Shown: in pieces, positions 17,483-19,681 of the stretch | Layout: each line of letters opens with the position of its first letter | Position numbering within the stretch: the stretch's first letter is position 1 | DNA from: Oscillospiraceae bacterium | Lineage (GTDB): Bacteria; Bacillota; Clostridia; Oscillospirales; Oscillospiraceae | Reading direction: 5' to 3' | Assembly (NCBI GenBank): GCA_902775355.1 | Contig: CACYLY010000017.1 | Location: forward strand, 23,166 to 86,179 | DNA length: 63,014 nucleotides | Notes under the pieces: model-generated | The model's input: only the letters and a program-made list of their open reading frames with translations | Told to the model about the DNA's origin: nothing | The model's database searches: none | Translations under genes and position numbers: made by a program

Positions 17483-18322
17483 ATGAAAGTCACCTATTTC
17501 GGCACCACGACCCTGCTCTTTGACGACGGCAGGGACCAGATCCTCTTTGATGCCCACCTGACCCGGCCCTCCCTGGTCCGCTACCTCTTCGGCAAGGGAG
17601 AGACGGACCGGGCCCTGGCGGAGGAGCTGATCCGCCTGCACCGGATCGACCGCCTGCGGGCCATCTTCGTCTCCCACTCCCACCACGACCACGTGATGGA
17701 CGCGCCCGCCCTGGCCGCGCTCTGCGGGGCGGAGGTTTACGGCACCAGCTCCACCCTGAACGTGGCCCGGGGCGGCGGCGTGCCGGAGGAGTGGCTGCAC
17801 GCCTTTTCCGGCGGAGAGAGCTTCCCCCTGGGCAGCTATCGGATCACGGTGCTCCCCTCCCTGCACTCCAAGCCCACCGCTTTGAACAACGACCTGGGCC
17901 AGACCATCGACGCGCCCCTCCGGCAGCCCGCCCGGCTGCGGGACTACAAGGAGGGCGGCTCCTTCGACTTTCTGGTGGAGGCCCAGGGGAAGCGCTTCCT
18001 GATCCGGCCCAGCTTCAACTATATTGAGGGCCAGCTGGACGGCGTCCGGGCAGAGGTGCTGTTTCTGGGGGTGGCGGGCCTGGCCAAGGCGGACTCCGAG
18101 ACCGAGGCGCGTTTCTTTGCCGAGACGGTGGATAAGGTCCGGCCAAAGCTGGTGATCCCCGTCCACTGGGACAATTTCTTCTCCCCTCTGGACCGCCCGG
18201 CCCGTGGCATGCCCGGGCTGATCGAGCACACCGAGCTCTCCTTCTTCAAGCTGGCCCGGGCCTGCGAGGCGCGGCAGATCTCCTGCCTGATCCAGCTCCC
18301 CCGGACCTCCGTCGAGCTCTGA
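17483..18322 (+). CDS. MBL-fold metallo-hydrolase
   Basis: A 279-residue metallo-beta-lactamase-fold protein. The metal-binding motif 'SHSHHDHVMD' (HxHxDH) follows the expected beta-strand, and a later 'VIPVHWDNFF' carries a C-terminal His ligand, as in UlaG/YtnP-like MBL proteins. The N-terminal 'VTYFGTTTLLFDDG' resembles UlaG-type L-ascorbate-6-phosphate lactonase-like members, but the substrate cannot be assigned. Many such proteins hydrolyse lactones or phosphodiesters in the cytoplasm. ATG 17483 is chosen because GGGAG lies 9 nt upstream; ATG 17474 abuts that site. No operon partner; the next 320 nt are the multi-hairpin element. Confidence 0.87.
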   Translation: MKVTYFGTTTLLFDDGRDQILFDAHLTRPSLVRYLFGKGETDRALAEELIRLHRIDRLRAIFVSHSHHDHVMDAPALAALCGAEVYGTSSTLNVARGGGVPEEWLHAFSGGESFPLGSYRITVLPSLHSKPTALNNDLGQTIDAPLRQPARLRDYKEGGSFDFLVEAQGKRFLIRPSFNYIEGQLDGVRAEVLFLGVAGLAKADSETEARFFAETVDKVRPKLVIPVHWDNFFSPLDRPARGMPGLIEHTELSFFKLARACEARQISCLIQLPRTSVEL

Positions 18323-18388
18323 TCCGACTCGCCCGACAGGCGAGCGGACTGGAAAGCTGCGTTATTGTTTTTGTGGATGCAGTCCCCT

Positions 18389-18603
18389 ATAATGATCATC
18401 GGATGGCGAAATCAATCGGAGATTCGATTGATTTCGCTGCCAAACGACAAGTTTGGCAGCGAATGATTCGTTGAATCATTCGCCCGATGCTCATTGCAAG
18501 GATGATCGGGCAAAAGAGCAATGCTCTTCTGCTGCGCAGCTTTGTTAATGCAAAGCTGCGCGGTGCAAGGCTTTCGGGCCTTGCACCATCCGATCATCGT
18601 TAT
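18389..18603. repeat. Seven-hairpin element enclosed by an 18-bp outer stem
   Basis: The outer arms (18389-18406 and 18586-18603) pair with one mismatch and one G-T. Between them lie consecutive hairpins almost without spacers: 18406-18437 (13 bp), 18436-18460 (10 bp), 18459-18483 (11 bp), 18482-18511 (7 bp ends), 18514-18528 (6-7 bp), 18534-18561 (11 bp) and 18562-18587 (10 bp). Neighbouring stems share their terminal GC. It has no coding content and looks like a multi-branched nucleic acid structure. The HTH gene begins 44 nt later. Confidence 0.8.
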
Positions 18604-18646
18604 ACTGAGCCTGCAAGACGAAAACAAGCCCAAGGAGGAGAACACC

Positions 18647-19681
18647 ATGGAACTGGGAAAGAAAATCAAGCAGCTCCGCTTCAAGGCGGGGCTGACGCAG
18701 GAGCAGCTGGCGGACCGGCTGGGGATCGGCCCCCAGTCCGTGTCCAAGTGGGAAAACGCCGTGGCCATGCCGGACATCACGACCCTGCCCCTGCTGGCGG
18801 AGGTCTTCGGCGTCAGCATCGACGAGCTCTTCGATCTGAGCGCCGAGCAGCGCCTCAACCGGATCGAAAACCGCATGGACCTGGAGGAGGACCTGCCCCA
18901 GGACGTGTTCCTGGAGTATGAGGAATATCTGAAGAGCCAGCTGGCCGACGAGCGGCACAAAAAGCGGGCGACGAACCTGCTGGCCTGCCTGTACTGGCAT
19001 CGGATGGACAGCTTCGCCCGGAAGACGAAGCGCTGGGCCGAGACCGCAGTGCGCCTGGCGCCGGGGGAAAAGGAGAGTCAGTGGCTGCTGCAGAAGGCCG
19101 CGGGCCACGCCGTCTGGGACTGGAACGCCGCCAACCACAGCGCCGCCATCGACTTCTACCGGGAGCTGACAGAGGCCGATCCCACGCTCCCCCTGCCCTG
19201 CTACTATCTGCTGGACAATCTGATCGCCGACCACCGGGTGGACGAGGCCGAGCAGGTGCTGGACCGGCTCTGCACCCTGAAGGACGCCAAGCCCATCCTC
19301 ATCCAGGTCTACCGGGCCCACATCGCCCTGGCCCGCTTCGACGAAAAGACCGCCGACCGGATCATGGAGGAGCTGGTGGAGGCCCACCCCGAGGACAGCG
19401 CCTGTCTCTTCGAGGCGGCCCAGTACTACGCGGCCAAGTGCGGCTACGACAAGGCCATCGACCTGTACGAGCGCTCCTTCGCCGCGGAAAAGCGCCGTCC
19501 CCGCTTCCAGGACGAGCTGATGGGCATCGCGGACATCTATGAGATCCGGGGAGACTTCCGCAAAGCGGCGGAGACCTATGACCGCATCATCGAGCTGCTG
19601 CGGACCGAGTGGGGCCTGACCGAGGAGGTGGCCCTGCAGGTGGCCCAGCGGAAAAAGGCCGAGCTGCTGGCCAGAGGATGA
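18647..19681 (+). CDS. XRE-type HTH regulator with TPR-like C-terminal domain
   Basis: The 344-residue protein starts with a Cro/C1 helix-turn-helix (about 3-58) containing 'AGLTQEQLADRLGIGPQSVS' and the usual 'KWENAVAMPDITTLPLLAE' continuation. It is followed by helical repeats resembling TPRs (about 110-340; e.g. 'AIDFYRELTEADPTLP', 'YDKAIDLYERSF', 'DFRKAAETYDRIIELL'). This architecture is common in Clostridia for regulators that sense a peptide or partner protein through the TPR part. ATG 18647 follows AAGGAGGAG. Its leader lies in or beside the multi-hairpin element, so that structure could affect expression (inference). Targets unknown. Confidence 0.88.
   Translation: MELGKKIKQLRFKAGLTQEQLADRLGIGPQSVSKWENAVAMPDITTLPLLAEVFGVSIDELFDLSAEQRLNRIENRMDLEEDLPQDVFLEYEEYLKSQLADERHKKRATNLLACLYWHRMDSFARKTKRWAETAVRLAPGEKESQWLLQKAAGHAVWDWNAANHSAAIDFYRELTEADPTLPLPCYYLLDNLIADHRVDEAEQVLDRLCTLKDAKPILIQVYRAHIALARFDEKTADRIMEELVEAHPEDSACLFEAAQYYAAKCGYDKAIDLYERSFAAEKRRPRFQDELMGIADIYEIRGDFRKAAETYDRIIELLRTEWGLTEEVALQVAQRKKAELLARG

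Follow-up and report, generated by a model that had tools for sequence, protein, structure and literature searches.

A hairpin-packed MITE-like element of gut Oscillospiraceae that often inserts into -10 hexamers, restores them and probably becomes a mobile 5' leader

The window, a 63,014-nt stretch of contig CACYLY010000017.1 from an Oscillospiraceae bacterium, carries a dense array of hairpins directly upstream of a gene for a regulator with HTH_3 and TPR domains (Table 1). The fold of positions 18380-18610 had a free energy of -130.4 kcal/mol, compared with a mean of -69.2 (sd 5.0) for shuffled sequences (z -12.3), and none of 200 shuffles was as good. All hairpins listed in the initial annotation, which had been made from the letters alone, were found, and the segment it had marked, 18389-18603, proved to be exactly the element plus its two flanking AT dinucleotides. 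The outer stem said to enclose the array was also present in this lowest-energy fold. The opposite strand of 18380-18610 folded equally well (z -13.3). When the element alone was refolded, two separate three-hairpin cloverleaves won, at -129.1. A terminator was rejected for the window copy, as the initial annotation had supposed, since 18300-18700 contained no G+C stem followed by a T run.

Table 1. Parts of the window copy and of the adjoining gene region (strand "." where neither applies)
Feature	Position	Strand	Basis
Presumed -35 (TTGTTT) of the HTH/TPR gene promoter, 17 bp ahead of the -10	18365..18370	+	Sequence, empty orthologs
Putative -10 hexamer TATAAT (TAT of the original promoter plus AAT of the element end)	18388..18393	+	Empty orthologs, family statistics
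Left AT of the 2-bp target duplication	18389..18390	.	Empty orthologs, flank logo
Mobile element proper, 211 bp, AATGATCATCGG...CCGATCATCGTT	18391..18601	+	Homologous copies, empty-site comparison
Half A, cloverleaf of hairpins A1-A3 with its own closing stem	18391..18495	+	Fold, pair counts
Closing stem of half A in the fold	18390-18395/18491-18496 and 18397-18402/18484-18489	+	
Hairpin A1, 15-bp stem	18405..18438	+	Fold, covariation
Hairpin A2, 7-bp stem	18439..18457	+	Fold
Hairpin A3, 11-bp stem	18459..18483	+	Fold
GC dinucleotide between the halves	18496..18497	.	TCATT-GC-AAGGA here; TCATT-GC-AATGA in many copies
Half B, cloverleaf of hairpins B1-B3	18498..18601	+	Closing stem 18501-18509/18590-18598; fold, pair counts
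Hairpin B1, 3 + 6 bp stem	18510..18532	+	Fold
Hairpin B2, 12-bp stem (the long variant, found in the 217-bp subfamily)	18534..18561	+	Fold
Hairpin B3, 11-bp stem	18562..18587	+	Fold
Right AT of the target duplication	18602..18603	.	Empty orthologs
AAGGAGGA, presumed ribosome-binding site of the HTH/TPR gene	18632..18639	+	Sequence
HTH_3 + TPR regulator gene, downstream of the element	18647..19681	+	

The array is one of at least eight copies in its own genome. A similarity search located seven, fragments aside, and one of the fragments (L018) grew to an eighth copy in a profile search. Besides the window copy there are near-full copies on contigs C20, C3, C44 and C29, two halves on C22 and a partial copy on C15. 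Among the 60 genomes searched, its own included, the element was matched in 20, that is, in 20 of the 37 from the window's genus and in none of the 23 from other genera of the order. No match was found in phages, plasmids or viral contigs, the last scanned with one exact pattern, and a phage, plasmid or viral origin was rejected on these scans. A pattern scan of named genome contigs recovered at least 115 stretches with the element; among the 80 matches listed, the titles named Oscillospiraceae, Ruminococcaceae, Clostridiales, Eubacteriales or Clostridia, and some named sheep, goat, roe deer or rabbit samples.

These 80 stretches and part of the places from the 60-genome search were compiled into a catalogue of 166 copies distinct in sequence and flanks, in which same-site copies in related species are counted separately. 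Both ends were present in 117 copies, 88 of which were 200-209 bp and 7 were 210-219 bp long; the usual length is ~206 bp, and that of the subfamily of the window copy is 217 bp. According to a rough caller, 121 of the 166 copies were uncovered by open frames of at least 80 codons, and 45 were covered. These results indicate that the family is a dispersed, non-coding, MITE-like element of uncultured gut bacteria. Divergence showed no clear sign of a recent burst within genomes: the closest relative lay in the same genome for 18 of the 54 copies with a noted genome among the 96 aligned. Seven draft contigs (L079, L083, L099, L102, L136, L143 and L145) end inside or next to the element; the assemblies thus seem to break there, and the true copy numbers are probably higher.

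In 116 copies, both ends read ATAATGATNAT inwards at most positions and form the terminal inverted repeats expected of a MITE. The interior consists of six hairpins, A1-A3 and B1-B3, in one order. Because all four closing arms, those at either end of A and of B, are alike, two topologies are possible, and these were compared with pair lists written by hand from the folds over 28 aligned copies of the 166 catalogued. The closing stems within the halves were 94.5% and 94.3% Watson-Crick with 33 compensated cells; the alternative topology reached 76.7% in its outer stem and 68.0% in its central hairpin, with 6 compensated cells. In the five rows of the 217-bp subfamily, the half stems reached 98.2 and 86.0% and the central hairpin 72.3%, and the outer stem reached 85.9%, compared with 74.7% in the other 23 rows. 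These results indicate that the conserved fold is two back-to-back three-hairpin cloverleaves. The single outer stem, rejected as the conserved fold on these counts, is a weaker alternative that forms in the lowest-energy fold of the window copy.

Compensatory changes were then counted in 96 copies at 54 hairpin pairs, a set from which nine junction or outer pairs had been dropped and to which two inner pairs had been added before counting. Compensated cells numbered 261, compared with 45.5 in shuffled alignments, and 36 of the 54 pairs showed compensation, compared with 12.2; the shuffle leaves the kinship among copies in place, and we read the compensation as pairing kept in a spreading lineage. 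The check proposed in the initial annotation, on pairing in other copies and on the outer arms in relatives, had a mixed outcome: the pairing is kept through compensatory changes, and the arms pair less well in most copies. Half A also stands alone with proper ends (L005, L006 and L400), and the full-length form therefore resembles a pair of small elements linked through GC. At L189:7649-7854, the right end of the element runs into another element-like end with the AT shared, a possible tandem pair and perhaps the origin of the two-half element. At L047:1212-1580, the A3 hairpin is split by an unrelated short inverted-repeat element with the ends GTAAACG...CGTTTAC, flanked by what resembles a 5-bp CTAAG repeat.

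A search with the HTH/TPR protein gave 26 ortholog or relative loci, including three with no recognisable start and eleven more distant ones left unread. The site was filled in two, the window and genome G006 (L282, with an internal deletion), and was empty and readable in ten. Each empty site carried a -10-like hexamer at the position of the element: TATAAT in L283, L284, L287, L289 and L290, TATCAT in L286 and L288, TACAAT in L291 and L304, and TACCAT in L293. A TTG was located 17 bp before this hexamer in eight of the ten (L283, L286, L287, L288, L289, L291, L293 and L304), with TGG instead at the -35 of L284 and L290. At the junctions of the window copy, CCCCTAT is followed by the element (AATGATC...ATCGTT) and then by ATACTGAGCC, and the closest empty forms continue TATAATGAGC (L284) or TATAATGAAGC (L289). 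Judged from these alignments, the window copy lies inside the predicted -10 hexamer of the HTH/TPR promoter, between TAT and the remainder, with AT on both sides. The -35 of this promoter is weak and the -10 reconstructed for it reads TATACT; a strict consensus scan reported no promoter at this site.

Other sites were compared in the same way. The L002 copy is located inside the -10 of another promoter, whose empty forms read TACAAT (L349) and TATCAT (L350); G006 was unreadable at this site. The mnmG promoter carries a half copy, A first, in G000 (L005) and a truncated copy, B first, in G033 (L372), and is empty in L368, L369, L370 and L373, which read TTGTAA-16 bp-TATAAT. The opposite orientations at the corresponding -10 suggest two independent hits. 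Among five candidate empty sites obtained from flank alignment alone, only L036/L144 showed a clean insertion, at TATA, and four did not. At the ribosomal protein gene rpsT, L048 and L183 carry the element, whereas all 30 orthologs fetched from 57 listed lack it at that site; one of the 30 has just 44 nt upstream. There the insertion is in the leader, directly before the ribosome-binding site and downstream of the promoter motif of the empty orthologs, and not in the -10. Between the two rpsT copies there are many differences at paired positions, most of them compensated, and the copies may represent two insertions. Dispersed copies and empty orthologous sites together back the idea of a composite mobile cassette built of palindromes, which was among the proposals of the initial annotation.

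The AT is single in the empty orthologs and is found on both sides when the site is filled, as in a MITE target duplication. This pattern fits equally a 2-bp duplication and insertion with zero duplication under a strict requirement for AT. The match between the flanks extended by one further base in 24 copies, compared with 14.5 in shuffles (maximum 23), and by two bases in 5 copies, compared with 2.7. Three or more matching bases were found in none of 116 copies, and a duplication reaching that far beyond the AT was rejected.

We next measured how general insertion into the -10 is. With spacers of 16, 17 and 18 from the TATAAT of the element end, TTG was found at 18, 27 and 9 of 280 distinct ends, compared with 1-13 at the other 32 spacers. 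The TG of an extended -10 was present at 35 of the 280, compared with 3-24 at the 17 other offsets counted, and a -35 score of at least 5 was reached by 9.5% of 232 ends, compared with 0.9% in shuffles and 1.7% further out. If an element has split a -10, the T on the promoter side, one AT and the first three bases past the other end should together spell that hexamer. Among the 44 ends with TTG, the hexamer spelled was exactly TATAAT in 23, where 10,000 permutations gave a mean of 7.4 and a maximum of 17, and TATNNT in 34; for the 188 ends without TTG, the corresponding numbers were 15 and 38. The 34 ends with both TTG and TATNNT were classed as promoter ends. A gene co-directed across the element was faced by 31 of them, with one opposite and two unknown, compared with 104 same-direction, 88 opposite and 6 unknown for the other ends; genes were called by a simple script.

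TTG at promoter spacing was present on at least one side in 37 of 116 copies. This number is taken as a lower limit because promoters in the genus can lack TTG; by the same count, many copies cannot be assigned to a promoter with confidence, the rpsT leader being one example. At control sites in the flanks, TTG preceded 26 of 60 TATAAT and 141 of 1932 plain TAT; among element ends, it preceded 52 of the 184 that follow a T and 3 of the 97 that follow a different base. Orthologous copies are included in these counts. Given the 26 of 60 at control TATAAT, the preference may be for the sequence TATAAT and not for promoters as such. The enrichment at the -10 could also partly reflect the survival of harmless insertions. 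Truncated copies with a TATAATG end upstream of a start codon (among them L308, L309, L311, L313 and L318) fit the promoter reading, but weakly, because the scan selected them by that end.

The explanation that we favour, with a probability of roughly 85%, is a family of MITEs that enter -10 boxes, keep them intact and turn into mobile 5' leaders. The element would be a non-autonomous, MITE-like unit of two hairpin-packed cloverleaf halves placed back to back, mobilised in trans by a putative recombinase or transposase. It inserts at AT, preferably within T-AT-A and often inside a sigma70-type -10 hexamer, and is then bordered by AT on either side. As both element ends begin with AATGA, the junction reads TATAATGA again, and the promoter still has a -10 at the right distance from its own -35. 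The rebuilt promoter is probably used: transcription would start just inside the element (~18400 here) and run through it, the ~200-nt hairpin array would be carried as the 5' leader of the HTH/TPR gene, and the gene would stay on. Such a leader may influence mRNA stability or translation.

A mobile element entering a promoter usually either disrupts it or supplies one from its own sequence. If the reading above is true, entry into the -10 with rebuilding would be an elegant way to spread without harm. The same structured leader would be shared by many unrelated genes of a single genus, which would offer many natural pairs, with and without the element, for testing the effects of 5' hairpins on mRNA. 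A more speculative extension, to which we give slightly less than even odds, is that transposition selects active sigma70 -10 elements, by sequence or by RNA-polymerase melting, with ends that mimic the distal half of the -10, so that every insertion would spare the promoter and add a portable 5' leader of several hairpins, and that the paired cloverleaf DNA is recognised during movement. Such recognition would explain why pairing is kept with no strand preference. The element itself would also provide a lead towards a recombinase with promoter specificity.

The role of the hairpins in RNA was evaluated from the strand and the pattern of changes. Promoter-class ends were divided between the A side (16) and the B side (18), so either strand would be transcribed and no RNA strand is favoured. 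In the transcript sense, G-U occupied 44 cells and A-C 31 (63 of 96 copies orientable), an excess judged not significant, and a strand-specific RNA constraint was rejected. Uncompensated single changes in stems were found in three of the four ortholog pairs compared, the exception being the rpsT pair L048/L183. These results suggest that pairing serves chiefly the movement or replication of DNA, and that the leader RNA is a consequence that may or may not be useful to the host genes. The initial annotation's proposal of a regulatory leader of the HTH/TPR gene was right as to position, since the element lies inside the promoter and 5' region of that gene; taken as a whole, the annotation's interpretation was partly supported. 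One of the three pairs with uncompensated changes, L178/L209, occupies a shared site in two genomes and differs by inversion of the A2 hairpin loop, a possible sign of DNA hairpin dynamics.

In a variant of the DNA reading, the family still spreads as DNA and the hairpins are kept mainly for what they do in RNA, as 5' protection or insulation of translation domesticated at many sites. The placement of the element 23-65 nt from the called gene start at 24 of 34 promoter-class ends (rough calls) agrees with this, as does the lack of a terminator-like site in the window copy. However, most orthologous insertions carry uncompensated stem changes, and copies with a hairpin deleted occur (L033, L110, L113 and L129), and we regard domestication as improbable. 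Still less probable is a conserved multi-copy structured RNA, cis-regulatory or trans-acting, with covariation arising from RNA function. Strong compensatory covariation, the many copies just upstream of genes and the mostly compensated differences of the rpsT pair would suit such an RNA, but transcription of both strands, the slight excess of G-U over A-C, the uncompensated changes in ortholog pairs and the lack of an Rfam family argue against it. In Rfam searches, just three tRNAs reached the gathering score in the whole window, and the best of 11 weak matches in 18300-18700 was far under the cut-off of its family. With no Rfam match and promoter-class ends on both sides, a regulatory RNA or riboswitch was also rejected.

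The joined ends TCATT-AT-AATGA resemble the target consensus YATT-AT-AATR. An AT on both sides and a target like the joined ends would be in keeping with a serine recombinase as a candidate mover, or with a DDE enzyme that cuts with a 2-bp stagger. An end scan allowing at most one mismatch in 23 genomes of the genus and 13 others gave no gene-bearing autonomous relative; these draft genomes are incomplete, and their contigs break at copies. Twenty stretches around partnerless ends contained further or truncated copies and apparent chance matches and no gene-bearing element. Mobilisation by IS630/mariner was rejected, with no DDE_3 match in the own genome and matches in 4 of 37 genomes in all; at the six IS630 loci, neither a significant match to the element nor, allowing 2 mismatches, any end-like sequence was present.

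Y1 insertion is not expected to give two symmetric ends with AT on both sides, and this misfit counts against REP/BIME-like hairpins mobilised by RAYT (Y1) transposases, the least credible of the alternatives. Proteins with weak Y1_Tnp scores occur in element-bearing genomes (G000, G006, G007, G017, G021 and G022), and in G021 a piece of the element (C35:2089-2195) lies ~2.4 kb from a Y1 gene (C35:4609), beyond the stretch read; but comparable weak matches occur in G012, G015 and G041, all with no element match, none of 12 stretches around Y1_Tnp genes matched the element, and at least four (L335, L338, L342 and L343) have a different, CGTAGGG-type palindrome near the Y1 gene. Five small RAYT-like Y1 proteins (L335, L338, L339, L340 and L341) carry an in-frame RGDPCGRP after a conserved motif, which may be a palindromic repeat within coding sequence.

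Several known systems resemble this family in part. REP/BIME sequences are likewise hairpin-rich, intergenic and dispersed, whereas here no RAYT gene accompanied these hairpins in the 12 stretches, and the inverted ends are symmetric with AT on both sides. Correia elements duplicate TA at their target, and the dinucleotide duplicated beside the symmetric ends here is AT. Correia elements (CREE), the MITEs of Neisseria, are described in the available part of PMC10969869 as small non-coding repeats near genes that can supply promoters, and by that description they share size, location and a link to promoters with this family. By the same source they carry their own promoter sequences, whereas this element completes an existing -10 from inside and, unlike them, has six covarying hairpins in two cloverleaves. 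The BOX elements of Streptococcus pneumoniae are by description also modular, strongly folded and dispersed short repeats, with a suspected effect on genes transcribed together with them (PMC3049150, available part). BOX elements have the module order boxA-boxB(n)-boxC and vary in the number of repeats of the central boxB; here six different hairpins stand in one order, and 88 of the 117 two-ended copies are 200-209 bp long.

Insertion into the -10 hexamer with its restoration is not described in the available parts of PMC10969869, PMC3942029 and PMC3049150, and this family was absent from the open-licence literature searched, a weak argument in view of that scope. Related in target are TnGBS, ISLre2 and ISKra4 (p-MULT 3 and some p-MULT 4 DDE elements), which, according to the available part of PMC3942029, are prokaryotic mobile elements that likewise hit promoters, those of sigmaA. 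TnGBS and the related insertion sequences insert 15-17 bp upstream of the -35 (PMC3942029, same part), whereas this geneless element is found inside the -10 with AT on both sides.
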